DNA of 39,419 nucleotides from contig NZ_MJEI01000063.1 of the NCBI RefSeq assembly GCF_002095395.1, positions 1-39,419 on the forward strand, written 5' to 3'. This DNA is from Williamsia sp. 1135 (GTDB lineage: Bacteria > Actinomycetota > Actinomycetes > Mycobacteriales > Mycobacteriaceae). A program made the position numbers and the translations under genes. The notes below the pieces were generated by a model, which was not told the DNA's origin, searched no databases, and saw only the letters and a list, made by a program, of their open reading frames with translations. Shown here piece after piece: positions 7,296 to 33,332 of this stretch. Positions within the stretch are counted from its first letter, which is position 1; every line of letters begins with the position of its first letter.

Positions 7296-7576
7296 GTGCG
7301 CTCCGGCGAAGTCTCGTCGGCGGGAATCATGATGAACCGGTGATCGAGGTAGCCGGCGTCTTGCAACGCAGCACCTAGGACCGTCGTGTACGGCGTGCCG
7401 GTAGTCGCGGCGATACCGTCCAGGGTGGTTCTGTTCGGAAGCGCTCTAACTCCGTTCGTGCGCATCAAACTCAATGTGGCACGCGAGATCCCGATGCGGC
7501 GAGCCGCTTCAGCGTCAGTTCGCTGGTCGGCCACCCGCCAGGCGTCGATGACCTCAAGGAGTCGAGAGCTGGACAT
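7292..7576 (-). CDS. XRE-like helix-turn-helix regulator
   Basis: The 94-aa protein carries a lambda-repressor-type HTH: LLEVIDAWRVADQRTDAEAARRIGISRATLSLMRTNGVRALPNRTTLDGIAATTGTPY. Recognition helix residues lie in SRATLSLM, and the second half has the usual tail for choosing target genes. ATG at 7576 (MSSSRLLEV) is preferred because the HTH begins directly after it; an in-frame ATG at 7615 (MLDNG...) has AGG close by and would give 107 aa. It heads a coupled three-gene operon and probably regulates it. The promoter region overlaps or abuts the first dif-like site at 7641, so recombination there could change the upstream sequence of this operon. Confidence 0.75.
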   Translation of the reverse strand: MSSSRLLEVIDAWRVADQRTDAEAARRIGISRATLSLMRTNGVRALPNRTTLDGIAATTGTPYTTVLGAALQDAGYLDHRFIMIPADETSPERT

Positions 7577-7640
7577 GATCTCAGTGTCGCAAACCAACAG
7601 ACCATTGTCGAGCATTACCTGACGTTTCGTTTGGCGCTAC

Positions 7641-7667
7641 TTGACATAATATCTATTATTGGTTGTC
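7641..7667 (+). repeat. dif-like Xer recombination site 1
   Basis: The layout is a left arm TTGACATAA, a 6-bp centre TATCTA and a right arm TTATTGG. This is the ATAA-6-TTAT architecture of XerC/XerD sites. On the minus strand the arm TTATGTCAA matches, from memory, the XerD-side half of actinobacterial dif. The centre is identical to that of site 3 (19039-19065). It lies between the HTH operon and the PIN toxin gene. The TTGACA is not followed by a usable -10 box, so a promoter is a poorer explanation. Confidence 0.55.
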
Positions 7668-7688
7668 CGCCAACGTGTTTCGTTGGAT

Positions 7689-8264
7689 CTAGCTCGCGGC
7701 GGCTCGGATCATCTCGACGGCGTCGATCATGCCGTATCGCCGCTCTAGTACTTCGAGTACGTGCTCGAGTGTTTCGGGAGGATTGGTGCGTCGGCCAATC
7801 ATTGTCCGCAGCGCGCGGACCGCAGCATCGGGCGAGACCGCTACCGTGTCAGCTACGAACACCGCTGGTTCGATCACCTGAATCTGAGCGGGCACTTTCC
7901 CCTGGGGGAGGTCTGAGATGTTGTCGGACACAATCGCTTCTGCACCACCGATGACAGCTGCGGCTACAAGGTGCTCATCGTCTGGATCCGGGAGGTTAAA
8001 TGAACCGTCGAGCACCTCCCAGCCAACGACACAGGCATCGTCGAACGCGGCTGCCATCTGCGCTACGAGGTGCGCTGCTCGTGCCGCGGCGTCTTCCGGA
8101 TCGGCGCCTCGGTCAACGAGTTTGCGCGCCTCGTGGAACTCGAGTTCTTCAAGGATGGCGTCCGACCATAGGGGGCGATATAGGTTCTCGGCTGCGAGTG
8201 AGAGCAGGACGTCTCGTTGTAGGCTCGGCCACAGTACGCAGGTGTCGAGAACGGCTACGAACAT
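7689..8264 (-). CDS. PIN-domain toxin (VapC-like ribonuclease)
   Basis: The 191-aa product has the PIN fold. The first metal-binding Asp lies in VAVLDTCVLWPS, and the acidic cluster lies in LPDPDDEHLVAAAVIGGAEAIVSDNISDLP. Between them is a helical insert (ILEELEFHEARKLVDRGADPEDAAARAAHLVAQM). The family acts as an RNase that is neutralised by its partner. It is longer than classical VapC (about 130 aa) and fits the actinobacterial PIN subgroup paired with excisionase-type antitoxins. The ATG at 8264 follows the antitoxin stop by 12 bp, which indicates one operon with the antitoxin first. It ends close to dif-like site 1. Confidence 0.85.
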   Translation of the reverse strand: MFVAVLDTCVLWPSLQRDVLLSLAAENLYRPLWSDAILEELEFHEARKLVDRGADPEDAAARAAHLVAQMAAAFDDACVVGWEVLDGSFNLPDPDDEHLVAAAVIGGAEAIVSDNISDLPQGKVPAQIQVIEPAVFVADTVAVSPDAAVRALRTMIGRRTNPPETLEHVLEVLERRYGMIDAVEMIRAAAS

Positions 8265-8276
8265 AGGTCGATTGTG

Positions 8277-8819
8277 TCAGCCAGCTTTTTCCGCTGTCTT
8301 GCGACGTGCTGCGACTGCTTTACGGGCCTCGCGCAGCTGCCGTCGGATCACCTCTGGGTCATCCTCGACGTCGATAGGCACCGACGTCGCCGCGATGGCG
8401 TCGTATTGCCGTGTCCGACGGGCATCCCGGTAGGCAAGCACGTCGTCAAGCAGCAGCCGATGCCGATTGCCGACCCGCTCGGCAGCGATCTGTTCGTCGT
8501 TGATCAACCGGACGATCGTAGGCCGACTTACACCCAGCAGGTCGGCGGCCTGCTGCGTCGTGAGGGTCATGCTCTGCGGCGCCACGGTGACAGCTCGGCC
8601 TTGAGACATTGCCTCAACTACCCGCTTGAGGACCTGATGAAGGTTCTCCGGCAGCTCAATTCGATCGTGCTCGTCGACCCCGACCAGGGCGTATGAAGGC
8701 TGTGCAGTAGTCCCCGCTGACCGTTCATGGGCTTGCAGGAAGCTCAGCACCGGCGCAAGCTGCTCAGCATGCTCGGGCAGGAACGTCTCAGAAGCGAGCG
8801 CCTGGGTTTGCGTTGCCAT
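8277..8819 (-). CDS. Excisionase/MerR-type HTH antitoxin
   Basis: The 180-aa protein carries the HTH LTTQQAADLLGVSRPTIVRLINDEQIAAERVGNRHRLLLDDVLAYRD at about residues 95-145. This is the helix-turn-helix type of excisionases and many antitoxins. An N-terminal region (PEHAEQLAPVLSFLQAHERS) and a charged C-terminal tail (VIRRQLREARKAVAARRKTAEKAG) flank it; the tail probably binds the PIN toxin. ATG at 8819 is chosen for the upstream GAGGTGG at about eight bases. The gene precedes the toxin by 12 bp, the standard antitoxin-first order. Inverted repeats over its promoter suggest autorepression. Confidence 0.82.
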   Translation of the reverse strand: MATQTQALASETFLPEHAEQLAPVLSFLQAHERSAGTTAQPSYALVGVDEHDRIELPENLHQVLKRVVEAMSQGRAVTVAPQSMTLTTQQAADLLGVSRPTIVRLINDEQIAAERVGNRHRLLLDDVLAYRDARRTRQYDAIAATSVPIDVEDDPEVIRRQLREARKAVAARRKTAEKAG

Positions 8820-8832
8820 GCCGGACCACCTC

Positions 8833-8870
8833 ACTATACGAACAAACCGAAATACTTTTCGATACGTTCG
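8833..8870 (-). promoter_or_regulatory. Promoter and probable autoregulatory operator of the toxin-antitoxin operon
   Basis: On the minus strand TATAGT (8833-8838) can serve as the -10 box. Upstream are a perfect CGAAA/TTTCG inverted repeat with a 4-bp centre (8848-8861) and an outer CGAAC/GTTCG pair (8839-8843 and 8866-8870). They cover the expected -35 region, the usual place for antitoxin binding. Confidence 0.5.
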
Positions 8871-8941
8871 AATATGCCAAATCGTGTCGAAAAAGTCCAC
8901 CCCTGCCACTGGGGGATGGGATGGCCCGCCGCGCACGATGG

Positions 8942-9442
8942 TCACCGCTCGTCGAGGTGCCGGTCGAGTGCTGCTTCCCAAAGGTCGATCTCGTAGGCAC
9001 TGAATAGATGCAGGGTGTCTTCGGTCAGGATGTAGCCGACGTCTTTGCTGGCGAGGACTTTGGCCTTGATGACCGGGTCATCGACGCCTTCGGCAAGTCG
9101 ATCGAGCATCGCGTCGAACGCATCCGCAGACAGCGGGGTCGGCACGGCGGCATCTGGGTCGGCCAGGAGCGGATCGCTCGGTCCGGGTTCGCGGCCGAAG
9201 CGGTCCACGAAGTCGCGCCGCAGGGCTTCGAGGGCGCCGGCCATCTCCGCAGCCTGGGGATGCTCCGGAGACATTGCCAGGGTGACATCGCCTGATGACG
9301 GGTCGACGTCTCGTTGGACGTAGTGCGGATCGGCGTGGCGCTCGAGGACCAACCGTGCGTGTTCTTCGCGTCGACGTTCGTCGGCGGCGAGCCGTGCTTT
9401 GCGGGCGCGGTTCTTGTCGGCGCGGGATCTGCTCACGGACAT
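8942..9442 (-). CDS. Unrecognised charged protein, third gene of the toxin-antitoxin module
   Basis: The 166-aa protein starts with a strongly basic helix (SRSRADKNRARKARLAADERRREEHARLVLERHADPHYVQRDVD). An acidic C-terminal part follows (DAFDAMLDRLAEGVDDPVIKAKVLASKDVGYILTEDTLHLFSAYEIDLWEAALDRHL). No family is recognised. ATG at 9442 (MSVSRSR) is chosen; there is no Shine-Dalgarno and GATAAC lies just upstream, so the mRNA may be leaderless. A 15-bp palindrome abuts the start. The gene lies upstream of the antitoxin, separated by 122 bp, and inside the same dif-like-site interval. A role in the toxin-antitoxin unit is possible but unproven. Confidence 0.65.
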   Translation of the reverse strand: MSVSRSRADKNRARKARLAADERRREEHARLVLERHADPHYVQRDVDPSSGDVTLAMSPEHPQAAEMAGALEALRRDFVDRFGREPGPSDPLLADPDAAVPTPLSADAFDAMLDRLAEGVDDPVIKAKVLASKDVGYILTEDTLHLFSAYEIDLWEAALDRHLDER

Positions 9443-9457
9443 ACTGTTATCAACAGT
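9443..9457. promoter_or_regulatory. Palindrome at start of the 166-aa gene
   Basis: The sequence ACTGTTATCAACAGT has perfect 6-bp arms around a 3-bp centre. It touches the start codon of the minus-strand gene at 9442. It overlaps the candidate -10 of that gene, so it is a plausible repressor site. Confidence 0.4.
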
Positions 9458-9500
9458 GGCAATCGAATATGCCACTCTTGCAGGACTTTCGAGCTTCTAC

Positions 9501-9527
9501 CTTACATAAGGTATCTTATCGGCGTAA
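9501..9527 (+). repeat. dif-like Xer recombination site 2
   Basis: Left arm CTTACATAA, centre GGTATC, right arm TTATCGGCGTAA. The right arm is identical over twelve bases to that of site 3. On the minus strand the arm reads CGCCGATAA, which matches my recollection of the XerC-side half of actinobacterial dif. The centre differs from sites 1 and 3, so recombination of this site with them would be disfavoured under normal Xer rules. Confidence 0.55.
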
Positions 9528-9546
9528 CCAATTGCGCTGCAATATA

Positions 9547-9566
9547 TTTCGTAACCAGTGACGAAA
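9547..9566. repeat. Near-palindrome beside dif-like site 2
   Basis: TTTCGTAACCAGTGACGAAA differs at one position from the perfect palindrome beside site 3. It begins 20 bp from the end of the right arm of site 2, nearly the same spacing as beside site 3. It could be an accessory-protein site for recombination, or a regulator operator. Confidence 0.5.
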
Positions 9567-9605
9567 CGTACCGCGAACTTGTACGCGGTTGACGACCTGG
9601 TGCCT

Positions 9606-9623
9606 TTCGTCACCCGTGACGAA
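9606..9623. repeat. Third copy of the TTCGTCAC/GTGACGAA palindrome
   Basis: TTCGTCACCCGTGACGAA has perfect 8-bp arms around CC. It lies 59 bp right of the copy at 9547, so two sites sit in tandem in the 214-bp gap between the 166-aa gene and the sigma-like gene. Confidence 0.5.
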
Positions 9624-9656
9624 TCACGTACTCTATACTTCCGTCGTCGGGTTCGA

Positions 9657-10121
9657 CTATGTGCCGGCGTCTGCTGACTGGGCCAGGTACTTTTCGACTT
9701 CTTTGCGCATCGTGAGGACGATCGCGGTGGGTAGTCCGACTTCGGCGCTGATGTGTTCGTCGTCGAGTCCGTCGACGAACGCTCCGACGAGCACCGGCCG
9801 CAGTTGTGGGGACATCTGCTCGAGGTAGCTGGTGAGTGTGAGCCAGTCCGGTAGCTCTGGCGGCGTGTCTGTAGCAGGTGCGGCGAGGATTGATTCTGCG
9901 ACGGATCCGATGCGCCCCGAGTAGGGCAATCCCTGGTAGCGAAACACTTTGGGTTTGGTGAGCATCCTGACGATTACCTCGATTGATACGGCCTCGGCGC
10001 GCTCCCAGTCCCCGTGTAGGCGGTGGCCGACGGTGAACCGAACAGCGTCATGAGTGTCGCGGACACGATCGAGCCAGTGTTGGAACTGTTCTTGCTTGAA
10101 GTCGCACCCTTCATGCGGCAC
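9657..10121 (-). CDS. Sigma-factor-like protein at the end of the amidase cluster
   Basis: This 154-aa protein reads like a short, degenerate ECF-type sigma factor. The first part (VGHRLHGDWERAEAVSIEVIVRMLTKPKVFRYQGLPYSGRIGSVAESIL) resembles region 2. The end (MSPQLRPVLVGAFVDGLDDEHISAEVGLPTAIVLTMRKEVEKYLAQ) resembles the region 4 HTH, which normally reads as an L(s)P..R....L....G.s..EIA..LG.p..TV..R. The match is to pattern only, and the residues that normally contact the -10 and -35 boxes are not well kept, so it could equally be a sigma-derived HTH adaptor. The start is GTG at 10121 with GAAGGG upstream. It is the last gene in the minus-strand cluster, 182 bp after cbtA. Confidence 0.5.
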   Translation of the reverse strand: MPHEGCDFKQEQFQHWLDRVRDTHDAVRFTVGHRLHGDWERAEAVSIEVIVRMLTKPKVFRYQGLPYSGRIGSVAESILAAPATDTPPELPDWLTLTSYLEQMSPQLRPVLVGAFVDGLDDEHISAEVGLPTAIVLTMRKEVEKYLAQSADAGT

Positions 10122-10241
10122 GGGAATTCCCTTCGATGGACTGGACGGTCGACACAGGAGCGGTGTTCGCCTGCCGTTGGAATGACTTGGTCGACGGGGG
10201 CCGCCACCTGAAATAGTCGGGATCGAGACAAACGCCCGAAG

Positions 10242-10285
10242 CCTGGTGGGGGCGCCTGTCGCTCGACTGGACTTCCCCCACCAGG
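10242..10285 (-). terminator. Strong hairpin after cbtA
   Basis: CCTGGTGGGGG pairs perfectly with CCCCCACCAGG across a 22-base loop. It begins 18 bp downstream of the cbtA stop. No U-tract follows, as is usual in actinobacteria, so it is a probable terminator or attenuator before the sigma-like gene. Confidence 0.5.
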
Positions 10286-10303
10286 GGTATTGGCGTGAGC
10301 TGG

Positions 10304-11107
10304 TTAGCTGACCAACGCCGACTCCGGGGTGCTGATGCTGGCGCGTCGTGCGATTCGTGTGAGTGCGAGCGTGAACACGATTCCCAGGACCGTCCAGAGG
10401 ACCACTTGGTTGATGACGGAGTAGAACCGGAAATCAGCCAGGGTGGCGGCAGGGAATCCATCAAAGAGAATCTCGTCGCCGTCAGTGAGTGCTGTGGGTA
10501 CGTCGTTGTAGGACGGCAGCACCGCGATAGAGATTGCCACCGCGACCACATAGAACGCGCCGGCGCTGATCGCGGCCAGGAGCCCACCGAGTTTGCCCAC
10601 CAGCCACAATCCGATCACCGCTGCAGCGATGGCGAACCCGACCGAGAGCAGGGTGATCGTAAGATACGCCCCGGTGCGCTCCCCGATCGTCTCGTCGTTT
10701 CCCACACCAGGCGGATTCGCAGGATAGGCAGCGAAGGGCACGAGGTACACCGCGACGAATCCTGTCGCTGCCAGCAGTGCGGCCGCCAACCGCGGGTCGG
10801 CTCCTCGGTGTCGGCGGCCGACGTAGGCCCACACGACGGTGAACGCAACGGCGAACAGGGCGCCCATCACCAGCCCGAAGACAATCGAACCGACCCCCGC
10901 ACCGATGTTCTCCTGCACCGACCGGCTGAACACCTCATGCTCGTGTCCGTGCTCACCGGTGAGGGCCGATTCAGCGTGCGAACGCTGCTCCTGGTAGTCG
11001 ATTCCCTTCCTCACCAACGGTTCGAGAACGATGCGGGCGAAGATGTAGGCGGCGATCCCTGCCAGCAGTCCGGCGAGCAGGCCGCTGCGGATGAACTTGT
11101 ATTCCAT
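10304..11107 (-). CDS. cbtA: CbtA-family membrane protein (cobalt uptake type)
   Basis: The 267-aa protein has the CbtA layout: a short N terminus (MEYKFIRSGLLAGLLAGIAAYIFARIVLEPLV), a loop with a His-rich patch (GEHGHEHEVFSRSVQENIGAGVGSIVFG), and about five further hydrophobic segments. The patterns YLVPFAAYPANPPGVG and ERTGAYL are typical of the family. CbtA and CbtB form a putative cobalt transporter that is normally controlled by a cobalamin riboswitch; I find no B12 element here. The ATG at 11107 lies 15 bp after the cbtB stop, so the two genes form one unit. In this window the pair belongs to the amidase/tubulin cluster, an unusual setting. Confidence 0.85.
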   Translation of the reverse strand: MEYKFIRSGLLAGLLAGIAAYIFARIVLEPLVRKGIDYQEQRSHAESALTGEHGHEHEVFSRSVQENIGAGVGSIVFGLVMGALFAVAFTVVWAYVGRRHRGADPRLAAALLAATGFVAVYLVPFAAYPANPPGVGNDETIGERTGAYLTITLLSVGFAIAAAVIGLWLVGKLGGLLAAISAGAFYVVAVAISIAVLPSYNDVPTALTDGDEILFDGFPAATLADFRFYSVINQVVLWTVLGIVFTLALTRIARRASISTPESALVS

Positions 11108-11122
11108 GGTGCTGGTTCCTGT

Positions 11123-11365
11123 TCAGTGGCAGGGGAAGCCGAGGAAGTGACGGGAATCGTGGACGAACTCGTGCACGTGGGTGTCGCTACCGAACACCGA
11201 CACCGCCCCCTGGTCATAACCCAGGAAGTAGTAGGCCAATAGGGCCAGGACAGTGGTCATGGTCAGCACCAGTGCCACGTTGATGGCCGACACCGTCGGG
11301 GTATCTAGTGTCAGCCCCTGGGTCAAAGTCTGTGGCAGTGCGCCACGTTCAGCAGCCGTGCTCAT
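11123..11365 (-). CDS. cbtB: CbtB-family membrane subunit (cobalt uptake type)
   Basis: The 80-aa product has a single membrane helix (INVALVLTMTTVLALLAYYFLGYDQGA). After it comes the C-terminal signature THVHEFVHDSRHFLGFPCH, whose four histidines and terminal Cys-His are the expected metal ligands of CbtB. ATG at 11365 is chosen because AGGAG stands eight bases upstream; an earlier in-frame start at 11395 lacks support. It precedes cbtA by 15 bp. Upstream is a 140-bp gap holding a strong hairpin and a GGTA tandem repeat instead of a cobalamin riboswitch. Confidence 0.88.
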   Translation of the reverse strand: MSTAAERGALPQTLTQGLTLDTPTVSAINVALVLTMTTVLALLAYYFLGYDQGAVSVFGSDTHVHEFVHDSRHFLGFPCH

Positions 11366-11443
11366 CGTGATATCTCCTAGGTTGTGTGTCTTCACAAAGG
11401 TCTGGGGCGATCATTGGTGGTGAAGCGGATAGAACGGCGGACC

Positions 11444-11475
11444 GAGTTGCCATCGCCATCGGGCGTTGGCAACTC
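11444..11475 (-). terminator. Perfect-stem hairpin between tubulin-like gene 2 and cbtB
   Basis: The 9-bp arms GAGTTGCCA and TGGCAACTC enclose, after a one-base mismatch, a second 4-bp stem CGCC/GGCG with a 4-base loop. No U-tract follows. It could lower read-through from the tubulin-like genes into cbtBA or protect an mRNA end. Confidence 0.5.
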
Positions 11476-11483
11476 GACCGACC

Positions 11484-11506
11484 GGTAGGTAGGTAGGTAG
11501 GTAGGT
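11484..11506. repeat. Tandem GGTA repeat, five copies
   Basis: Five perfect GGTA units run from 11484 to 11503. They end at the stop codon of tubulin-like gene 2 (TGA on the minus strand at 11506-11508). Such a tetranucleotide run can change length by slippage. Because it lies outside the frame, the effect would be on spacing or RNA structure. Confidence 0.8.
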
Positions 11507-13218
11507 CAGGGTGTGGGAACCACAGTCTTGACAACCTCGGTCATGACCTCGGTGGTGTAGTCGACCGCTGTCGCGGGTAGGTCAGCGTCGGCGTTGCCGA
11601 ACTCTTCGAGGGTGAGGTGGGTGTTCCACCCTGGCGATCCGGGCAACGCTTGTCCCATGATCCCTTCGAACTGGTCGGAGGGCTCGGAGAGAACGATTCC
11701 CAGTTCCAGCAACCAGGACGACAGTTCAATGCGTTCGGCTGTGGGTACGGCGTCGTAGAGTTTCTTCGCCTCGGCGAACGCGGTGAGGTCGGCTTTGGCA
11801 ACACCCGGGATGATGATGTTGGTGTACAGGGTCAGCTCGTCGAAGAACTCGTGGTCGGAGGTCCGCAAGAATCCGTCTTCGCCGGGAAGGAGGTATTGGC
11901 CCAGGGTTTCCTCGAGTGTGCGCTGGAGCGTGGGATTCCACTTGGTTCGTGCCGAATAGGTATGTGCTTCCATGTATTCGGTTTTGAATCCTTCCCGCAG
12001 GCCCATCCATTTGGGCATATAGCCGATCCAGTCGCTGATCGCGGCCCGCCACTTGCTCATCGGCTCGCCCGGGAGCACCTCTACGCCGGGGTGCATCAAC
12101 TTGGCGACGTTGAAGATCGTGAAGTTCCGGGGACCGAAGCTGATGCGTTCGTGCGGCGCCCCGGTGAAGCCTCCCGCGCGAAGGACACGGAAGATCTCCC
12201 TGCCGTAGTCATGGACCACATACCGGGCGAACGAGTCATCGACGAACTTGTTCGTGACATGCAGGGCCTGTTGGTGGCGGACCTCGGGCAGGACACCCTT
12301 TTTGATCGTCGTGTACCGGAACAACCGTTCCCACGACTGTTCCTGGGGCAGAGCCAGGAATCCACCGTTGAAGGGGTTTTTGTACATGTCACCCCAGATC
12401 GCGGTGATCTTGTCGTTCTTTCGTTCGTCGAGCATGCAATCGATTTCGTTGAGCGTGGTGTACACCGATGCGCCGCGCTGGTATTGCGGATCGCCTGAGC
12501 ACGGCAGGAAACCGGCGCCGATCACCGGGACCCGGCGGCCCAGTGCTCCGTTGGTCAAGTGCCGGGCCAGGTCCACGACCATGCCGCTACCGGTGCCGCC
12601 GCCGATGCCGAACGCCACCAAGACCATCGACGGCAGCCCCGTCTTGTCGATGCTGTCCGCGAAATCGCGGATCTCGGTGTAGAGCGGGCGGTCCCCGTCG
12701 TAGTACGCCCGGCCGTAAATGGCCTTGGCCAGTGAACGCGGGATGTGCTCATCGGCGGAGGGAACCTCGAGCTGGGCGACGTAGTTCTTCTCACCTGTGG
12801 GCAGGTGCGCCGTGGACGGCAGCCACGAGAAGGTCTCGGGCGCAGGCTCATTCCAGTCAAAGCGCGGAAACTCGCGGCCGAGGAACTGGGGGAACCGGTT
12901 GACGGTCTCAGCTAGCTCGTCGGCGGTGGGAACATCCAGGCTGACCGTGCGTATTTGCGCGCGCTCGGCGGGAATGCCTCGTTCCTCCAGGCGTGAGTGG
13001 AAGGAGTCTGCGTACTGCCGCAGCTGGCGCATGTCGCCTTCGCCGATGTCCACCGCCAAGGCGGTGAATCGAGCTCGGGGATCTTCCAGTAGGTCTTCGA
13101 TTTCGCCGGTGCGCAAGAACGCGTCGATGAGCTGCGCTCCCGCCTTTCCGATGCCGACGATGTTGATGCAGTGCGGGGATTGTTTACCGGTGGCGCTGTG
13201 GTACATCGAAAATGCCAT
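11506..13218 (-). CDS. Tubulin/FtsZ-superfamily GTPase-like protein 2
   Basis: The 570-aa protein has the nucleotide-binding hallmarks of the tubulin superfamily. They are a T1-type loop VGIGKAGAQL (residues 21-30), an acidic T2/T3 region (ALAVDIGEGD), and the signature FGIGGGTGSGMVVDLARHL with GGGTGSG at 206-212. A conserved block TTLNEIDCMLDERKND follows, where tubulins carry their base-contacting Asn. It is longer than FtsZ and best fits the Tubulin_2-like group of accessory bacterial homologues. A clear NxDxxD/E catalytic T7 loop is not evident, so polymer-coupled GTP hydrolysis is uncertain. It is a paralogue of the 512-aa protein and shares the WGD(M/L)YKNPF block. It follows the 105-aa gene by 19 bp. 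Confidence 0.8.
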   Translation of the reverse strand: MAFSMYHSATGKQSPHCINIVGIGKAGAQLIDAFLRTGEIEDLLEDPRARFTALAVDIGEGDMRQLRQYADSFHSRLEERGIPAERAQIRTVSLDVPTADELAETVNRFPQFLGREFPRFDWNEPAPETFSWLPSTAHLPTGEKNYVAQLEVPSADEHIPRSLAKAIYGRAYYDGDRPLYTEIRDFADSIDKTGLPSMVLVAFGIGGGTGSGMVVDLARHLTNGALGRRVPVIGAGFLPCSGDPQYQRGASVYTTLNEIDCMLDERKNDKITAIWGDMYKNPFNGGFLALPQEQSWERLFRYTTIKKGVLPEVRHQQALHVTNKFVDDSFARYVVHDYGREIFRVLRAGGFTGAPHERISFGPRNFTIFNVAKLMHPGVEVLPGEPMSKWRAAISDWIGYMPKWMGLREGFKTEYMEAHTYSARTKWNPTLQRTLEETLGQYLLPGEDGFLRTSDHEFFDELTLYTNIIIPGVAKADLTAFAEAKKLYDAVPTAERIELSSWLLELGIVLSEPSDQFEGIMGQALPGSPGWNTHLTLEEFGNADADLPATAVDYTTEVMTEVVKTVVPTP

Positions 13219-13237
13219 GGTGTGTCTCGCTTTCTCT

Positions 13238-13555
13238 CTAGTCCAGGTAGCCGAGGTCTTTGAGGACGGTGGCGGTCACCGTCGGACGCTCGTCGGCGAT
13301 GGTGGTGCGGTATTGGTCGATGAACTCGTTGGCGACGCGGGTCATGGTGCCTGCGTTGACCATGTCGATCGCCCGCTCCAGGTTCGAGCGGGTGAGGGAG
13401 GCTTTCCACAGTCGATGTGTGACGTGGATGTACTCGTCGTCGACGCCACTGACCGAGATCTTCGCCCCTCCCGGCAACGAGTCGACTTCGGCCCCGTCCC
13501 CGTATTTGGCGACGATCATGTCCCAGTCGAGCTTGTCGCCGTCCAGTCTGGCCAT
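13238..13555 (-). CDS. Conserved-looking 105-aa protein between the two tubulin-like genes
   Basis: The product begins MARLDGDKLDWDMIVAKYGDGAEVDSLPGGAKISVSGVDDEYIHV, likely a small beta domain. A helical half follows (SLTRSNLERAIDMVNAGTMTRVANEFIDQYRTTIADERPTVTATVLKDLGYLD). I recognise no family. It has no export signal. Its ATG lies only 3 bp after the stop of tubulin-like gene 1, and its stop is 19 bp before tubulin-like gene 2. A tightly coupled position between two polymer-type proteins suggests an adaptor or regulator of them, but that is inference. Confidence 0.75.
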   Translation of the reverse strand: MARLDGDKLDWDMIVAKYGDGAEVDSLPGGAKISVSGVDDEYIHVTHRLWKASLTRSNLERAIDMVNAGTMTRVANEFIDQYRTTIADERPTVTATVLKDLGYLD

Positions 13556-13558
13556 CTG

Positions 13559-15097
13559 TCAGCCGGCCACGAGATCGAGTTCGCCGCGAATCGCCGCGTG
13601 CGGGACAACGACCCAGCACGCGCATCCGAGCAGACATTCACCGCCGACACCTTCGAACCGTGTTGAGGGTTCACAGAGCAGCACACCCAGATCCAACAGC
13701 CAGGAGTGCCGCATCAGCTTCTCTTCCCATTCCAGGCTGTCGTAGGCCACGCGGCTTGGGACGAAGGACTTCAGATCTAGCTTGCTCAGTCGCGGAATGT
13801 ACAGACTCACCGACTCCGGTCCGGATGTGGCGAATCCGAGTCCGGTCGGACCGACGAGAGTCGAGACGACAGAGGTCACACCCTGCGCGGCATCCGATGC
13901 TGCAGAATCGTCGGCCTGCGCCTCGAAGAGGCGGACCTCCGCGAACTCGGGCACCACCGTGTCGGTCAGCTCCTGGGCGCTGAGCAGGTTGCCCGCAGAG
14001 GCGCCGACGCTGAGCAGGCTGATCCACTTGTCGGTCTGGTCGCCGCGGGTGGCCGGGTGCCAGGCGTTGGCCGGGACGTTGAGCCAGTTGAGCGCTTTGA
14101 TGGACTCATACAAGTGCAGCCCGCCATCGCGGAGCACAAAATCGCTCAGGCCTTGATCGATCCGGGCGTGAGTTTGCTCGACGCTGCCCGTCTCCTCGTA
14201 CACAGCGTTCTGCGGAACAGCGAAAAAACCTGCGGTGAAGGGGTTCTTGTACAGATCGCCCCACACCGTCATGACGCCCTTGTTTTTGTCTGCGTCGACC
14301 ATGCAGTCGAGTTCGTTGATCGTGATGAAGGTGCGGCCGTCGCTGAGCTCGACCGGGTCACCGTCGGACGGCAGGACCCCGATGCCCAACACCAATGCCC
14401 TGCGGCCCAGTCGGATATTGGACAGGTGGCGAGCGAGCTCCACCACGATGCCGCTGCCGGTGCCGCCGGCGAGCGAGAACACCACGCACACGATCGGGGT
14501 GTCTTTGCTGTCGAGGACCTTGTCCGCGAACCCATCCAGAGCTACCGCAACGTCCCCGCCGGTGTAGTAGTCGACACCGTACAAAGCTTTGGACACCGCT
14601 CGCGGGAAATGTGAACCGGCTGCGGGGATGTCGAGGTCGTTCGGCAACCAAGGCTCGTAGTTGGGGTTCCAGTAATAGCGGGGGTACTCGGTCTTGAGGA
14701 ACTCCCGGTACCGGCGCAACCCGTTGAACAAGGTCGCGTTGTCCAGCGCGGGAATGTTCACCGTCTGTCCGCTGACGCGGTCAGGGGCAGCGGCGAGCGC
14801 CTCGGTGACCGAGGTCAGTTCGGCGTCTCCGATGTCAATGGCCAGGGAATCAAAGGCGACGTCCGTGCCAGCCGCTACCCCGCTGCCGGAATGTGATGTG
14901 ATCATGCTCTCGATGACGTTGGCGCCGGTTTTTCCGATCCCCAGCACGTGCAAGGAGAACGGGCCCTCGTGATCGCCGATGCGGTGGACTCCCTCCCCCA
15001 CTAGTGCTTCAATCCGGGAGAGATCGGTAGTCAGTCCCAGAGACTCACTGTCGCAGGCATCGTGGGAGTGGCCGTGGTCGTGTCCAGAGGTAGACAT
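13559..15097 (-). CDS. Tubulin/FtsZ-superfamily GTPase-like protein 1 with His-rich N terminus
   Basis: The 512-aa protein has the T1-type loop VLGIGKTGAN (51-60) and the tubulin signature AGGTGSGIVVELARHL (210-225), with Ala replacing the first Gly. The ITINELDCMVDADKNKG block is shared with its paralogue at 11506-13218. The N terminus (GHDHGHSHDACDSE, residues 5-18) is a His/Asp/Cys-rich segment of the sort that binds Co, Ni, Zn or Cu. That is striking in an operon that ends in CbtAB. ATG at 15097 overlaps the amiB stop by one base (TAATG), with GGAAGG upstream, which supports this start and translational coupling. Upstream in-frame starts lie inside amiB. GTP binding is likely, and polymerisation is inferred from the family. 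Confidence 0.8.
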   Translation of the reverse strand: MSTSGHDHGHSHDACDSESLGLTTDLSRIEALVGEGVHRIGDHEGPFSLHVLGIGKTGANVIESMITSHSGSGVAAGTDVAFDSLAIDIGDAELTSVTEALAAAPDRVSGQTVNIPALDNATLFNGLRRYREFLKTEYPRYYWNPNYEPWLPNDLDIPAAGSHFPRAVSKALYGVDYYTGGDVAVALDGFADKVLDSKDTPIVCVVFSLAGGTGSGIVVELARHLSNIRLGRRALVLGIGVLPSDGDPVELSDGRTFITINELDCMVDADKNKGVMTVWGDLYKNPFTAGFFAVPQNAVYEETGSVEQTHARIDQGLSDFVLRDGGLHLYESIKALNWLNVPANAWHPATRGDQTDKWISLLSVGASAGNLLSAQELTDTVVPEFAEVRLFEAQADDSAASDAAQGVTSVVSTLVGPTGLGFATSGPESVSLYIPRLSKLDLKSFVPSRVAYDSLEWEEKLMRHSWLLDLGVLLCEPSTRFEGVGGECLLGCACWVVVPHAAIRGELDLVAG

Positions 15098-16134
15098 TAT
15101 TTTCCTTCCATTGGTGTAACCAAAAATTTCTGTGCAGCCTGCTCCGGCCCCACTGTCGTCGGGGGGCAGGGGTGTGATGGACGGCATGCGATGGTCTGGC
15201 CGCTGTCAACCACCACATGCAGAGCGCCGGGGTCGCGACGTGTCGCTGCAATCGCGTCCACGGCATCGGCAATCGCCGGCAGTAGGTGGCGGCGTATCGA
15301 TCTGCGCAAAGCCCGTGCGCCATACCGCGGATCGAACCCTTGCTCGACGAGGTAACCGACGAGGCTGTCGTCGAAGTCGATGTGCACGTACCGTTTAGCG
15401 AGCACCTGGGTGATGCGGCCAAGCTCGAGATCAACGATCTGTTGCGCGGCGCCGCGGTCGATCGCCGCAAACCTGACGACCTCGTCAATCCGATTAAGGA
15501 ACTCCGGGTCGAAGAAGCTCTCGATCGCCTTCCCGATGGCATCGTCGGGCGAACGACACCTCCACCACGGTCGGCGCGCCACCGATCGGCGGCTTCCCAG
15601 GTTGGTGGTCAAGATGACGTGACAGTTCCGGAACTCGATGGTCCCGGCCCCCGAACTGAGCCGCAGCACACCGTTGTCGAGGACATGGAGCAAGGCCCTG
15701 ATCACGACCGGATGCGCTTTCTCGACCTCATCGAAGAGCACGATCCCCGGCGTGTACGGATCGCCCTCGATCCTGCTCTTGTCGAACAGAGTCGTCGACT
15801 CCTTACTTCCGGAATATCCCGGGGGCGCACCGGAAAACGACGCGGCATAGTGCTCTTGAGCCAACGCGCTCATGTCGATCCGGCAGTAGTCTTCGGGTCC
15901 TGCTCGTAGTGCGCCCGCCAGCGCCCGCACCATCGAGGTCTTGCCCACACCGGTCGGGCCGGCGAACAACAGCACCGACAGAGGCCGGTCGTGGTGGCCC
16001 AGGCCAGCGCGTGCGATACGCACCGCTCGGCTCACCGCATCGACCGCATCGTGTTGCCCGATCACCGTTGCCGCCAGGTGGGCGGCAAGGGGGTCCTCGG
16101 GCTGGCGAATCTCGGTTCCTGGTGTGGTGGTCAC
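15097..16134 (-). CDS. amiB: AmiB-type Clp/Hsp100 AAA+ ATPase
   Basis: This 345-aa protein is a single AAA+ module of the ClpB D2/ClpX-like type, the size and form of Pseudomonas AmiB. Walker A is GPTGVGKT (59-66). The pore-loop equivalent is GAPPGYSGSKES and Walker B is IVLFDEVEKAHP (131-142). Sensor 1 is VILTTNLGS, the arginine finger lies in FFDPEFLNRIDEVV, and sensor 2 in GFDPRYGARALRRSIRRHLL. It lacks the ClpB N-terminal and D1 domains. GTG at 16134 follows the amiE stop by 7 bp. Such a protein could remodel or disassemble an oligomer. Candidate substrates are the hexameric amidase next door or, more novel, the two tubulin-like proteins encoded directly downstream. Confidence 0.85.
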   Translation of the reverse strand: MTTTPGTEIRQPEDPLAAHLAATVIGQHDAVDAVSRAVRIARAGLGHHDRPLSVLLFAGPTGVGKTSMVRALAGALRAGPEDYCRIDMSALAQEHYAASFSGAPPGYSGSKESTTLFDKSRIEGDPYTPGIVLFDEVEKAHPVVIRALLHVLDNGVLRLSSGAGTIEFRNCHVILTTNLGSRRSVARRPWWRCRSPDDAIGKAIESFFDPEFLNRIDEVVRFAAIDRGAAQQIVDLELGRITQVLAKRYVHIDFDDSLVGYLVEQGFDPRYGARALRRSIRRHLLPAIADAVDAIAATRRDPGALHVVVDSGQTIACRPSHPCPPTTVGPEQAAQKFLVTPMEGK

Positions 16135-16141
16135 GGCAGTC

Positions 16142-17179
16142 TCAGACTTCCTGAACCTTCTCCACAGGCAGGTCGCCCACGGGGCAATCGGCGACCCCGA
16201 TGGTGTCCCGGGTGAAGGCTTCGACGTTCTCCTGCGCCTTCTGCGCATCAGTCACCCAGGTCTTATAGAAGTCGAAAGGACAGTCGGCGATCCCTTTGTC
16301 GCCGTCGCCGGCGGCGTGAACGCCGGTGTATCCGCGGTGCATAAGTTTGAACAGATGGTTCTGCGACTGATCGTTCTTACGAGCGTCGCGGATCTCGTTG
16401 ATAGACAACTGGGCATACTGGATTCCGTACTCTTCGGCACCGGTCTCTCCGAGAGTCCGGCCATCGAAACCGATGACCGCCGAGTGCCCGAAGTAGGTGT
16501 AGACCCCATCGAAGCCGGCAGCGTTGGCGACCGCCACGTAGACGTTGTTGGCCCAGGCCATTGCCTTGGCCATCATCACGGTCTGGTCGGCAGCGGGGTA
16601 CATGTACCCCTGCCCCCGGACGATGAGCTCTGCCCCCTTCATGGCGCAGTCACGCCAGATCTCGGGATAGTTGCCGTCATCGCAGACAATCAGCGAGACC
16701 TTCATTCCCTTCGGACCGTCGCACACATACGTGCCCGACCCCGGATACCACGGCTCGATAGGAGTCCATGGCAGCACCTTTCGGTACTTCTGCACGATCT
16801 CACCCTGATCATTCATGAGAATGAGAGTGTTGTAGGGCGGCTTGTGGGGATGGTCTTCGTGCTGCTCACCGGTCAGCGAAAACACTCCCCAGGTCTTGGC
16901 ATCGCGGCAGGCCTGGGCGAAGACCTGGGTCTCGGGGCCCGGAATCGACGCCGCGGTCTCGTACATCTCGTCTGTGTCGTACATGATTCCCTGAGTGGAA
17001 TACTCCGGGAAGACAATGAGATCCATGCCAGGGATCCCCTGCTTGATACCGCGAACCATCTCAGCGATCTTGTTGGCGTTCTCCAACACCTCGGCCCCGG
17101 TGTGAAGCCGAGGCATCTTGTAATTGACCACCGCCACACCCACAGTGTCTGGGCTCGACGAAATATCTCCATGGCGCAT
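16142..17179 (-). CDS. amiE: Aliphatic amidase (EC 3.5.1.4)
   Basis: The 345-aa enzyme of the nitrilase superfamily hydrolyses short aliphatic amides to the carboxylic acid and ammonia. It aligns along its entire length with Pseudomonas AmiE from the start [24 protein letters not shown]. The catalytic triad is present at the canonical positions: Glu59 in VFPEYS, Lys134 in KYRKVLPW and Cys166 in [14 protein letters not shown] at 17179 is chosen to match the family start; a GTG at 17191 would add four residues. It is the first gene of the minus-strand cluster and is followed after 7 bp by amiB. Nearby MarR and AmiC-like genes probably govern its induction by amides. Confidence 0.95.
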
Positions 17180-17454: not shown

Positions 17455-17892
17455 CTACTTGATGGACGCGGACACAGTTGCCGCCAGCACCTCGGCCAGG
17501 GCCCTGACCGCCCGGGTGTCTGCCTGCGGGAGCTGCGCGAGAAGGCGGGCTTCGGCCAAGTGCAGACGGGCCGCGAGCTCAGCGCCAGGTTTGGTCAACA
17601 GTGCCACCACCTTGCGCCGGTCGAAGGGATCGATCTGGCGAACAACGGCCCCCGACGACACCAACCGGTCTAGATTTCTCGTCAACGACGCCGCCGGCAG
17701 CGCCGCGATCTGCGCCAGCTCGGTCATAGGCAGAACCTCATGCTCGCGCAACGCACCCACGATGCGCCACTGCTCAGGCGAGACACCCTCGGCGTCGCTG
17801 GTGGACCGCAGCGCCGCAAAAAGCGCCCGCTCACACTGTGCAAGCAACAGCAACAAACTAGGATCAGAGGTGATCTTGACCGCCGAACTCAC
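17455..17892 (-). CDS. MarR-family regulator
   Basis: The 145-aa protein is a winged-helix MarR repressor. The HTH is LREHEVLPMTELAQIAALPAASLTRNLDRLVSSGAVVRQIDPFDRRKVVALLTKPGAELA, with the wing residues DPFDRRK. Dimerisation helices lie at each end. GTG at 17892 is chosen for the GGGGAGGGG just upstream; longer versions run into the divergent amiC-like gene. In Pseudomonas amide control runs through AmiC and the antiterminator AmiR. Here no AmiR is present and a MarR protein fills the regulatory position between amiE and the AmiC-like gene. It is therefore a candidate repressor of both flanking units. Confidence 0.88.
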   Translation of the reverse strand: MSSAVKITSDPSLLLLLAQCERALFAALRSTSDAEGVSPEQWRIVGALREHEVLPMTELAQIAALPAASLTRNLDRLVSSGAVVRQIDPFDRRKVVALLTKPGAELAARLHLAEARLLAQLPQADTRAVRALAEVLAATVSASIK

Positions 17893-17911
17893 GTCGCCCC
17901 TCCCCTGATAC

Positions 17912-17923
17912 TGGTCCGAACCA
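17912..17923. promoter_or_regulatory. Candidate MarR operator in the divergent promoter
   Basis: TGGTCCGAACCA is an imperfect inverted repeat with TGGT/ACCA arms. It is centred in the 54-bp gap between the MarR gene and the amiC-like gene, where a repressor could control both directions. Confidence 0.35.
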
Positions 17924-17946
17924 ACAACTGCCGAGGCTGATCGCAT

Positions 17947-19047
17947 ATGAACCACCCTCCTGTTGAACGTACCCGAGGATCGACACATTCGAGACCCAAC
18001 CGCGCAGGCCAGTCATATCGCATCGGCTACATCTACCCCCAATCAGGACCGGCCGGCATCTACGGCCCCTCCTGCCAATCCTGCGGCCAACTCGCCGTCG
18101 ACAGACTCAACGCAACCGATGGAATACGCTCACGACCAGTCGAACTAGTACCCATCGACGGAGGCCTCACCCCGCCCCAGGTAGCCCACCACGTCGACAC
18201 CCTCATCACACAAGGCTCCATCGACGCCATCACCGGATGGCACATCTCCGCCGTACGAGCCGAGGTAGCACGCACAACCGCAAGCCGCATCCCCTACGTC
18301 TACGCAGCGCTCCACGAAGGAGGGACACTAAACCCGCACGTGGTCTACGCAGGAGAAAGTCCCGCCATGCAAATCGGACCCGCCCTCCACTGGCTACACA
18401 CCGAAATGGGACTTCAACGCTGGGCCATCGTCGGAAACGACTACATCTGGCCCCGCAACACCGCCCAGTACGTCCGCCAATACACCCGAACCAACAACCT
18501 CACCATCACCGGCGAAAAATACGTACCCCTCGGAACAGACAACTACGACACCGTCGTCCACGAACTCACCACCAACCCACCCGACGGAATCATCATGCTC
18601 CTCGTCGGCCAAGACGCAGTGTCCTTTAGCCGAGCATTCACCAACGCCGGACTCACCACCGACATAGCCAGATTCAGCCCCATCATCGAAGAAAACGTCC
18701 TCCTGGCCGCCGACTCAAACAGCAACCACAACCTCTACGCCAGCGCCGGCTACTTCGACACCCTCCTCACCAGCCAAGCCCTCGACTTCGCCACCACCTA
18801 CCAAAACACCTACGGCGACCGCTCCCCCCGACTCAACAGCATCGGCGAATCCTGCTACGAAGCCATCATGCTCCTAGCCGCCCTACAAACCCCACCCAAC
18901 GACCCCCCACACGACCGAGTATTCGAATCCCCCCGCGGACAAACCACCCTCACCGGCAACCAAATAAACCAAGACATCTACATCGCACAAGCCAACGGAC
19001 TCGAATTCGACGTACTCGACAGAATCAACCACCCCAACTTAACGTAA
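17947..19047 (+). CDS. AmiC-like amide-sensing periplasmic-binding-fold protein
   Basis: The 366-aa product has the type 1 periplasmic-binding fold (IGYIYPQSGPAGIYGPSCQSCGQLAVDRLN, DAITGWHISAVRAEVAR, HVVYAGESPAMQIGPALHWL, GNDYIWPRN) but no signal peptide or lipobox. It is thus probably cytoplasmic, like Pseudomonas AmiC. It matches AmiC at the NVVYGG and GSDYIYPR blocks. AmiC binds amides and controls amidase expression with AmiR; no AmiR is present here. The third codon position is almost always C or A and rarely G outside Met and Trp codons, unlike the neighbours. The stop codon TAA at 19045 lies inside dif-like site 3, so the C terminus may have been set by recombination. It is about 20 residues shorter than AmiC. 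ABC-transporter binding proteins are the main alternative family. Confidence 0.8.
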   Translation: MNHPPVERTRGSTHSRPNRAGQSYRIGYIYPQSGPAGIYGPSCQSCGQLAVDRLNATDGIRSRPVELVPIDGGLTPPQVAHHVDTLITQGSIDAITGWHISAVRAEVARTTASRIPYVYAALHEGGTLNPHVVYAGESPAMQIGPALHWLHTEMGLQRWAIVGNDYIWPRNTAQYVRQYTRTNNLTITGEKYVPLGTDNYDTVVHELTTNPPDGIIMLLVGQDAVSFSRAFTNAGLTTDIARFSPIIEENVLLAADSNSNHNLYASAGYFDTLLTSQALDFATTYQNTYGDRSPRLNSIGESCYEAIMLLAALQTPPNDPPHDRVFESPRGQTTLTGNQINQDIYIAQANGLEFDVLDRINHPNLT

Positions 19048-25634: not shown

Positions 25635-27965
25635 ATGGCTACTGCACCTGCATCTGCACCCCAGACCTCCGCTGCACTCGAACTCGAGATCGGCGGCATG
25701 ACCTGCGCGTCGTGCGCCAACCGGATCGAACGCAAGCTCAACAAACTGCCCGGGGTGACCGCGACGGTGAACTACGCCACCGAAAAGGCGAAAGTCACCG
25801 CAGGCTCCGGCGACCTCGACCCTGACACCCTGATCGCCACCGTCGAACAGGCCGGGTACACCGCCGCCCTGCCCACCGCGCGCACCAGCAATGGCGCCGA
25901 CGACGGCGACCAGCGCACCCGCCCCGACGGCGAGCTGGCCGCCTTGCGCCAGCGACTGTGGGTCTCGGTCGTGTTGACGGTGCCGGTGATCGCGCTGGCG
26001 ATGGTCCCGGCGTGGCAGTTCACCTACTGGCAGTGGGCCTCACTGACTCTGGCCGCGCCGGTGATCGTGTGGGGCGCCTGGCCTTTTCACAAAGCGGCGT
26101 GGATGAAGCTGCGGCACGGTACCGCCACTATGGACACCCTGGTCTCGGTCGGCACCCTCGCCGCCCTGGCCTGGTCGATCTATGCGCTGTTCTGGGGCAC
26201 GGCCGGACAGCCCGGGATGACCCACGGTTTCGAGTTGACCGTCTCCCCCACCGACGGTGCGGGCAACATTTACCTGGAAGTCGCCGCCGGGGTCACCATG
26301 TTCATTCTGGCCGGCCGCTACTTCGAAAAGCGTTCCAAACGCCAAGCCGGAGCAGCACTGCGTGCCCTGCTCGAGCTCGGTGCCAAAGACGTCGCCGTCG
26401 TGCGGGGCGGCACCGAAGCCCGCATTCCCATCACCGACTTACGCGTGGACGATGAGTTCGTGGTGCGGCCCGGAGAGAAGATCGCCACCGACGGCGTCAT
26501 CACCAGCGGACGCTCCGCTGTCGATGCGAGCATGCTGACCGGCGAATCGCTGCCGGTCGAAGTCAGCGAAGGCGACGCGGTCACCGGCGCGACCGTCAAC
26601 GCCGGCGGCCGGCTCATCGTGCGGGCCACCCGCGTGGGTACCGATACCCAGCTGGCGCGGATGGCTCAGCTCGTCGAAGATGCCCAATCGGGTAAAGCGC
26701 AGGTCCAGCGACTCGCTGACCGCATCTCCGGGATCTTCGTCCCCATCGTCATCGCGATCGCCGTCGCGGTCCTCGGCGGCTGGATCGGTGCCGGGTTCCC
26801 GCTCAGCGCCGCATTCACCGCAGCGGTGGCCGTGCTGATCATCGCCTGCCCCTGCGCCCTGGGGTTGGCCACACCCACCGCACTGCTGGTGGGCACCGGC
26901 CGCGGAGCCCAGCTGGGCATCCTGATCAAGGGCCCCGAGATTCTTGAATCGACCCGCGCTGTGGACACCATCGTCCTGGACAAGACCGGCACCGTGACCA
27001 CCGGAACGATGACCCTGCAGCAGGTCGTCACCGCCGACGGCGTTGCCCCCGACGATGTGCTGCGACTGGCCGGGGCGCTCGAGCACGCCTCCGAACACCC
27101 CATCGCCCGAGCCATCGCGACCGCCGCGGCCGAGGAGACCGGTCCCCTGCCGTCGGTGGAGTCGTTCACCAGCGTGGACGGCAAGGGCGTACACGGTGTC
27201 ATCGAGGGACACGCGGTGCTGGTGGGACGCGAGAGCCTGCTTACCGACTGGTCCCTGCACCTCGAGGGCACGCTGGCCGCGGCCAAGACTGCGGCCGAGC
27301 AGACCGGGAAAACAGCAGTCGTGGTGGCCTGGGACGGCCGCGTCCGCGGCGTGCTCGTGGTCGCCGACACCATCAAACCGACCAGCGCCGCCGCGATCGC
27401 CCAGTTCACGGCTCTGGGCCTGACCCCGATTCTGCTCACCGGGGACAACCGCGGCGCCGCCGACTACGTCGCCGCCCAGGTCGGTATCACCGACGTCATC
27501 GCCGAGGTCCTGCCTCAGGACAAACTCGCTGTCATCGCCGACCTGCAGAAGCAGGGCAAAACAGTGGCCATGGTTGGCGATGGTGTCAACGATGCCGCCG
27601 CCCTCGCCCAGGCCGACCTGGGGCTGGCGATGGGCACCGGCACCGATGTGGCCATCGAGGCCGCTGACATCACCCTGGTGCGTGGTGATCTGCGTTCAGC
27701 GGCCGACGCGATCCGGTTGGCCCGCAAAACATTAGACACCATCAAAATGAATCTGTTCTGGGCGTTCGCCTACAACATCGCCGCTATCCCCCTGGCCGCG
27801 CTTGGGCTGCTCAACCCCATGCTCGCCGGGGCTGCCATGGCATTGTCCAGCGTGTTCGTGGTGAGCAACAGCCTGCGCTTGCGCGGGTTCACCTCCCGCG
27901 CCACCTCAGCGGCGCCGACCCCACCCGCTTCGGCACTCACCCACCGGCCGTTGCAGCACGCCTGA
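25635..27965 (+). CDS. copA: Cu(I)-exporting P1B-1 ATPase
   Basis: The 776-aa pump expels Cu(I). The N-terminal HMA domain contains [16 protein letters not shown]. The transmembrane metal site is [10 protein letters not shown], and the phosphorylation motif is DKTGTVT. The ATP-binding domain has HP in [10 protein letters not shown] and [16 protein letters not shown]. The last helices carry YNIAAIPLA and [15 protein letters not shown], which match the YN and MxxSS residues of Cu(I) pumps. The size and domain order are typical. AAAAGGA stands before the ATG at 25635. It is co-transcribed with copZ and the His-rich exported protein under operator 1. Confidence 0.95.
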
Positions 27966-28002
27966 CCACTTCCCCACCCACCCGATCGTCACACCTCGAC
28001 TA

Positions 28003-28019
28003 ATACCCCAGGGGGGTAT
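28003..28019 (+). promoter_or_regulatory. CsoR-type copper operator 2 with overlapping -10
   Basis: This is an identical 17-bp copy of the operator at 24259. TATACG at its right end can serve as a -10, and CTCGAC 16 bp before it as a -35, so the repressor would sit on the core promoter. Confidence 0.8.
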
Positions 28020-28022
28020 ACG

Positions 28023-30176: not shown

Positions 30177-30214
30177 CGACCTACAATGCACACGCCCGAC
30201 AACGAAGGACTTCC

Positions 30215-33311: not shown

Positions 33312-33332
33312 ATTTGAACGATAACATCGTGC

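Follow-up and report, generated by a model that had tools for sequence, protein, structure and literature searches.

We analyzed a 39,419-nucleotide stretch of DNA from the soil bacterium Williamsia sp. 1135 (contig NZ_MJEI01000063.1, here called the window), in which eight genes on the minus strand, from the amidase gene amiE to a sigma-like gene, include two genes for large tubulin-like proteins with a gene for a 105-amino-acid protein between them. The two tubulin-like proteins are most likely the two halves of a cobalt nitrile hydratase and not a cytoskeleton. With high probability, the locus is a nitrile-degradation operon organized around the cobalt acetonitrile hydratase AnhA-AnhE-AnhB, with the fold, cysteine claw, metal transport, and regulation proposed below. 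An earlier sequence-only reading of the window had described the gene set as matching no described system; this claim was not supported, as the triplet matches the gene set of the acetonitrile hydratase of Rhodococcus jostii RHA1. That enzyme is already known. Its membership in the tubulin superfamily and its C-x-x-G-C-A-C motif, in contrast, seem to be unreported in the literature that we searched.

Correspondence with the acetonitrile hydratase of Rhodococcus jostii RHA1

Papers that cite the work on RHA1 describe a purified cobalt acetonitrile hydratase (ANHase) with nitrile hydratase activity and a metal content of one Co, two Cu, and one Zn per enzyme, encoded in the order alpha-AnhE-beta, with AnhE as a cobalt metallochaperone (PMC3511329, PMC3680314). 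On the RHA1 plasmid pRHL2, we found the order MarR, ligand-binding protein, aliphatic amidase, tubulin-like protein, a 99-amino-acid protein, tubulin-like protein, helix-turn-helix (HTH) gene, and nickel transporter. AnhA of the window (13559 to 15097, minus strand; identified by homology and predicted fold, as was AnhB) was 74.5% identical to RHA1_RS41530, and AnhB (11506 to 13218, minus strand) was 73.5% identical to RHA1_RS41540. The product of the middle pRHL2 gene, RHA1_RS41535, has 99 amino acids, a mass of 11.09 kDa, one histidine, and no cysteine, and AnhE of RHA1 is reportedly an 11.1-kDa protein with a sole histidine. Its homologue in the window, the putative cobalt metallochaperone gene anhE (13238 to 13555, minus strand), encodes 105 amino acids with a mass of 11.63 kDa and two histidines; AnhE of locus L029 was identical to it over all 105 amino acids and 74% identical to RHA1 AnhE. 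No ordinary nitrile hydratase alpha gene was found on pRHL2, the RHA1 replicon that was searched, and ANHase is said to resemble no characterized nitrile hydratase. Based on the gene order, the subunit identities, the size and histidine content of AnhE, and the lack of an ordinary alpha gene on pRHL2, we assigned the window triplet as anhA-anhE-anhB, and we infer that the pRHL2 genes are anhAEB.

The two clusters agree in gene order, protein sizes, aliphatic amidase, MarR and ligand-binding neighbors, and the presence of a metal transporter. However, amiE and anhA of the window are separated by an AmiB-like AAA+ gene (no relative of which is annotated in the 31.6-kb RHA1 stretch, for which the gene table is incomplete), CbtAB stands where RHA1 has a nickel-type transporter, and the MarR and sensor genes upstream of amiE are swapped in order and orientation.

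The resemblance to ordinary cobalt nitrile hydratases (alpha and beta subunits plus an activator) covers the predicted reaction, the use of cobalt, a claw-like cysteine motif, a metal chaperone, and amidase and CobW-type neighbors. In contrast, no Pfam family is shared: neither the window proteins nor the 48 scanned rows of subunit alignment A3 contained an ordinary nitrile hydratase domain (PF02979 or PF02211) in a Pfam scan, and the 48 rows matched tubulin families only. Homology to ordinary nitrile hydratases was rejected for this reason. In addition, the AnhA and AnhB subunits are more than twice as long, and they carry CxxGCAC in place of CTLCSC. For AnhE, the best match among solved structures was a tau-containing chain (E value of 0.0068), which was taken as a chance hit since no stretch passed alone.

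Predicted tubulin fold and the candidate cobalt site

At the sequence level, the tubulin signal of the two large subunits was marginal, with PF13809 scoring 27.3 and 22.8 bits (cut-off, 27) and PF00091 scoring 25.0 and 27.5 bits, below the cut-off of 33. PF13809 matched 39 of the 48 scanned rows of alignment A3, and the solved homologues found by sequence search were FtsZ and tubulin-like chains only (E values of 0.0044 to 0.3). AlphaFold models, built from alignments of 48 (AnhA) and 46 (AnhB) sequences, had mean predicted local distance difference test (pLDDT) scores of 87.7 and 85.1, respectively, and a predicted TM-score (pTM) of 0.90 each. When these models were compared with solved structures in Foldseek, 836 (AnhA) and 908 (AnhB) chains were returned at an E value of ≤0.001, with best E values of 1.3e-8 and 3.4e-9 and a probability of 1.00. 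The best 50 chains for each model were all FtsZ, CetZ, TubZ, tubulin, or microtubule entries, aligned over 403 to 530 (AnhA) and 456 to 598 (AnhB) columns, gaps included, with TM-scores by target of 0.44 to 0.64. When the profiles of subunit alignments A3 and A2 were compared with FtsZ of the same genome, the match was weak, with probabilities of 4.4% and 9.9%, respectively, and the superfamily claim therefore rests on structure prediction and Pfam. Given the Foldseek matches, the TM-scores, and the weak profile comparison, the models identify AnhA and AnhB as diverged members of the FtsZ/tubulin superfamily with inserts. The sequence-only reading had already placed both proteins in this superfamily, an assignment that is marginal by Pfam and gains backing from the predicted structures.

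The nucleotide loop GGTGSG (G-G-T-G-[ST]-G) is present and nearly invariant among relatives, with one subunit A row reading ADGTGSG. FtsZ and tubulins hydrolyze GTP with an acidic T7 loop, NxDxxD; inspection of the NPF..GF stretch by eye revealed no apparent counterpart of this loop. Compared with the FtsZl/Tubulin_2 (PF13809) group, the Anh subunits share the predicted fold and the GGTGSG loop but differ in having no apparent acidic T7 residues, an additional cysteine motif, and cobalt- and nitrile-related gene neighbors. The neighbors described for FtsZl1 are vWA, kinase, GTPase, and OmpA genes (PMC2875224).

The cysteine motif, C-L-L-G-C-A-C, lies near the C terminus of AnhA (residues 488 to 494; positions 13616 to 13636, minus strand), and AnhB of the window has ALPGSPG at the same place. 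Ordinary nitrile hydratases bind cobalt with a C-x-x-C-S-C claw; this claw is absent from AnhA, and its C-x-x-G-C-A-C motif resembles it in sequence. With neither a family nor a fold in common between the two enzymes by these searches, such a resemblance would reflect convergence, and by analogy the three motif cysteines are predicted to be cobalt ligands. Both kinds of motif occur in one Rubrobacteraceae locus, L026, as CTLCSC and CIWGCAC.

We scored the motif in the loci obtained from the genome scan described below. In 52 loci with both ends readable, the motif was present in both subunits in 34, in AnhA only in 7, in AnhB only in 11, and in neither subunit in none. Locus L082 was set aside because its AnhB is cut by the contig end; with it, the counts over 53 loci become 34 with both, 11 with B only, and 8 with A only. 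Of the 21 subunits in the tree set that lack the motif, 19 had no cysteine at any of the three positions. On a tree of 107 subunit rows (quick method, with Shimodaira-Hasegawa-like approximate likelihood ratio test support only; built without the partial rows of A in L035, L042, L045, and L053 and of B in L082), the motif label required three changes, and the number was the same when the motif columns were dropped. We read these changes as losses, one from AnhA in a Pseudomonadota group, one from AnhB in a Rhodococcus-Williamsia-Gordonia-Mycobacterium group, and one from AnhB in two Bacillota. If two paralogous partners have a catalytic site in common, this is the expected pattern, with the motif missing from either partner but never from the two together. 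RHA1 retains the motif in AnhA only, which agrees with AnhA reportedly being the subunit that takes up cobalt.

Distribution and gene neighborhoods

To find relatives, 72,556 plasmid records were searched, and the large subunits matched in 15 of them (12 Rhodococcus, 2 Shinella, and 1 Agrobacterium), 12 of which were opened. In all eight annotated Rhodococcus stretches, an aliphatic amidase and a cobalt/nickel transporter were no more than about 7 kb away from the triplet. Six of the eight had an AAA family ATPase; a ninth opened Rhodococcus stretch carries no annotation and is outside these counts. On the Agrobacterium plasmid, the triplet was accompanied by genes for CbtAB and a GTP-binding protein, by CbbQ/vWA genes, and by an amidase gene. 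The full triplet was not seen in the two Shinella stretches, opened at one match place per record; what they contained was a tubulin-like protein of shorter length, together with CbbQ and vWA genes and an amidase about 7 kb away. A shorter tubulin-like protein without the cysteine motif and next to CbbQ/vWA genes was observed on Rhizobiaceae plasmids (L017, 16619 to 17767; L019, 11983 to 13131; L023, 14983 to 16131), with 382 amino acids in the two copies measured.

A single scan of 84,980 species genomes, made with alignment seed patterns that exclude the cysteine motif, gave 59 loci, 5 archaeal and 54 bacterial. The A, E, and B genes were found at 53 of the 54 bacterial loci, the exception being L086, a 4.2-kb contig with fragments, so that the gene set goes beyond chance. 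The archaeal loci (L085 and L087 to L090, which are without AnhE) and the L086 fragment were left out of the set of 53; judged by length and match, the contigs of L032, L033, and L070 are identical to those of G373, G188, and G007, respectively. Subunit roles were assigned by position, and by hand in L053 (A is split between two frames, of which the second piece was used), L078, and L084. The 53 loci span Actinomycetota, Bacillota, Cyanobacteriota, Pseudomonadota, and Myxococcota (the last from metagenome bins only), and the order was A-E-B in 52 of them and B-A-E in one, L078. An almost identical cluster is present in Williamsia limnetica (L070). The distribution was patchy, with relatives in 3 of 61 genomes (that of the window included, all of one genus), 3 of 9 genomes of the genus, and 3 of 396 genomes of the phylum (that of the window included). 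Among viruses, none of 31 pattern stretches was confirmed as a relative, and PHROGs gave 0 families.

Neighbor counts over the 53 loci are limited to the flanks present, many of which are cut. An AnhE relative was found at all 53. An amidase of any of three types occurred at 37 loci (26 of the 33 that have 4 kb or more on each side), and an AmiE match occurred at 33 loci, although some of these matches were just 37 to 46% identical and may be other carbon-nitrogen hydrolases. Less frequent neighbors were a ligand-binding protein (29/53), a sigma-like gene (26/53), a cobalt/nickel transporter (24/53), a CobW-type GTPase (24/53), a MarR gene (20/53), an FmdA-type acetamidase/formamidase (9/53), CbbQ/vWA genes (8/53), an AmiB-like AAA+ gene (7/53), and an ordinary nitrile hydratase (3/53). 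The last were in L026 of Rubrobacteraceae (1140 to 2905 and 7515 to 11141) and in L065 and L084 from Rhizobacter bins, where two unrelated enzymes for one reaction are predicted to stand side by side. In the genome of the window itself, a single ordinary nitrile hydratase alpha gene lies on a different contig (G000:C91:16789-17340, L091), and the genome of the Paenibacillus locus (G453) had no PF02979 match.

Additional AnhE-like matches outside the triplet were seen at many Pseudonocardia-type loci (L034 to L050, L061, L069, L077 to L079, and L083), most of them close to the sigma-like gene on the downstream side of anhB. A loose BLAST search gave 36 such matches in 24 loci, one of which is the true AnhE of L063, in the frame before anhB. 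Large distant relatives of the subunits, with 877 to 903 amino acids, were present in archaeal metagenome-assembled genomes (Nitrososphaeria, Desulfurococcales, Pyrodictiaceae, and Thermoprotei; L085 and L087 to L090, with L090 cut), and neither an AnhE match nor the cysteine motif was found at these five loci.

Proposed pathway, alternative explanations, and meaning

The layout of the operon agreed with the sequence-only reading for all eight genes in order, strand, and gaps, and its designation as an amidase operon was borne out by amiE (16142 to 17179, minus strand, with the start ATG at 17179), which encodes an aliphatic amidase (amide to acid plus ammonia) scoring 686 bits against NF009802 (cut-off, 427) and matching the solved aliphatic amidase 2uxy with an E value of 2.6e-193. 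After a 7-bp gap follows the AmiB-like AAA+ ATPase gene of the ClpB D2 type (15097 to 16134, minus strand; PF07724, AAA_2, and PF10431, ClpB_D2-small), with a GTG start and a TAA that shares 1 bp with the ATG of anhA. A 3-bp gap separates anhA from anhE, and a 19-bp gap separates anhE from anhB, after which come cbtB, cbtA, and the sigma-like gene. The proposed cobalt transporter subunits are encoded by cbtB (11123 to 11365, minus strand, with the start taken as ATG 11365; a longer frame begins at GTG 11395) and cbtA (10304 to 11107, minus strand). Both products were above the Pfam cut-offs (PF09489, 38.8 bits against 27, and PF09490, 227.9 bits against 30.7) and far below the NCBIfam cut-offs (17.5 bits for CbtA and 17.7 for CbtB). 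The earlier proposal that CbtAB supplies a metal is probable, with cobalt as that metal.

The sigma-like gene (9657 to 10121, minus strand), a recurrent partner of the cluster, had no Pfam match and a weak NCBIfam match (23.4 bits; cut-off, 202). Its product was 31% identical over 133 columns to the product of the gene beside anhB in the Rubrobacteraceae locus (L026, 6934 to 7452), and the small sigma-70-like family that they represent may be a regulator or accessory factor. Upstream of amiE, a MarR-type regulator gene (17455 to 17988, minus strand; PF12802/PF01047) and a divergent gene for an AmiC/urea-receptor-like ligand-binding protein (17947 to 19047, plus strand; PF13458), both with uncertain start codons, probably also are part of the operon. 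The ligand-binding protein had no signal peptide obvious by eye and matched AmiC (1pea) with an E value of 2.8e-15, with urea receptors and another receptor scoring higher; it is a probable amide or nitrile sensor. The gene set of the Pseudomonas amidase operon is amiEBCRS; the window shares AmiE, the AmiB-like ATPase, and the AmiC-like sensor with it but adds the hydratase triplet, cobalt transport, and the MarR gene. Elsewhere on the contig, genes for three P-type ATPases, of which one contains a heavy-metal-associated domain, and for an Nramp-type transporter (25635 to 35717 and 37688 to 38938) perhaps form a metal-handling region.

For the chemistry, the regulation, and the role of the AAA+ protein, we infer the following pathway. 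CbtAB would import Co2+, and AnhE would carry it to AnhA, where the three thiolates of the C-x-x-G-C-A-C loop and, by analogy with the claw of ordinary nitrile hydratases, the Cys-Ala-Cys backbone amides would bind the metal. AnhA and AnhB, as paralogous FtsZ/tubulin superfamily proteins, would form an enzyme instead of a filament, in which cobalt activates water or the nitrile and small nitriles are hydrated; the amide would leave and be hydrolyzed by AmiE to acid and ammonia, with the AmiC-like protein and MarR sensing and regulating. The AAA+ protein would be optional and is perhaps an accessory chaperone of the amidase or the hydratase that may assist folding or activation, a place perhaps filled elsewhere by CobW-type GTPases or CbbQ/vWA pairs.

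Several observations weigh against this interpretation. Over the best 50 Foldseek rows per model, TM-scores by query were just 0.31 to 0.47, with root mean square deviations of about 6 to 13 Å, and the GGTGSG loop is kept, though an enzyme without nucleotide need not keep it. With C-x3-C-x-C, the cysteines of the motif are spaced by one residue more than those of the ordinary claw, and 2 of the 21 motif-less subunits (A of L068 and B of L076) retain one cysteine at the motif positions. None of the three amidase types was present at 7 of the 33 well-flanked loci. In addition, the identification of the pRHL2 genes as anhAEB depends on the published gene order and on the size and histidine count reported for AnhE, and a table in PMC6941271 has one RHA1 nitrile hydratase without a plasmid label, with a footnote that takes unlabeled entries as chromosomal; a chromosomal location would not fit pRHL2.

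The kept loop and the predicted fold of both proteins, together with the tight packing of their genes with amiE and the AAA+ gene, are what a two-component tubulin-like polymer that arranges or moves the amidase and is remodeled by AmiB could explain, as had been proposed from the sequence. We consider such a polymer very unlikely, given that the same triplet is the RHA1 hydratase set, that an AAA+ relative was found at just 7 of 53 loci and the amidase is missing from 7 well-flanked ones, that no T7 loop of the NxDxxD type was apparent by eye, and that cobalt genes and a cobalt chaperone are unexpected for a filament. Tubulin-like genes standing regularly without amiE had been named as an observation that would speak against the polymer, and this was seen in part, with no AmiE match at 9 of the 33 well-flanked loci and a match at the other 24.

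Within a nitrile hydratase, C-x-x-G-C-A-C could instead be a zinc, copper, or iron-sulfur structural site, with cobalt bound elsewhere, for example by conserved histidines. The two Cu and one Zn in the published metal content would suit this explanation, as would His 38, 50, 224, 347, and 464 of AnhA, which are conserved in 96 to 100% of rows. It is nevertheless improbable, as the motif was lost from one subunit and never from both, 19 of 21 motif-less subunits lack all three cysteines and two keep one, and RHA1 keeps the motif in AnhA, reportedly the cobalt subunit. It is also doubtful that the window encodes a related hydratase with a main substrate other than acetonitrile, such as other small nitriles or thiocyanate: an identity of about 74% leaves room for a shifted substrate, and FmdA-type or ordinary nitrile hydratase genes stand beside some relatives (9/53 and 3/53), but the window has an aliphatic amidase and an AmiC-like sensor, like RHA1.

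Returning to a cobalt acetonitrile hydratase, we think it fairly probable that one branch of the tubulins gave up its cytoskeletal role and evolved into a heterodimeric cobalt hydratase, that a three-cysteine claw for the same metal and reaction arose independently of ordinary nitrile hydratases and was present in both subunits of the ancestral enzyme, and that one site or the other was then shut down, so that Rhodococcus and Williamsia have the active site in AnhA, whereas Agrobacterium and related Pseudomonadota have it in AnhB, perhaps at the subunit contact where tubulins hydrolyze GTP. Among the open-licence PubMed Central papers listed, no title or abstract start connected nitrile hydratase to tubulin or FtsZ. 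Membrane remodeling was the role proposed for FtsZ-like families in their 2010 description, in which the words "hydratase," "amidase," "cobalt," and "Rhodococcus" do not occur in the main text (PMC2875224). A 2023 survey used the Tubulin_2 group as divergent FtsZ-like sequences to root a tree, and "hydratase" and "enzyme" do not occur in it (PMC9871819). The labels given to the two subunits of RHA1 in RefSeq are "tubulin-like doman-containing protein" and "hypothetical protein," so that the annotation conceals a biocatalytically interesting enzyme.

If the proposal is true, the tubulin fold would be able to carry metal catalysis, a fold of the cytoskeletal type having been turned into a metal enzyme, and the cysteine-claw chemistry of nitrile hydration would have arisen at least twice in nature. 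Three point mutations then would allow a direct test of the active site of ANHase, and the pattern of reciprocal motif loss predicts, lineage by lineage, which subunit binds cobalt.

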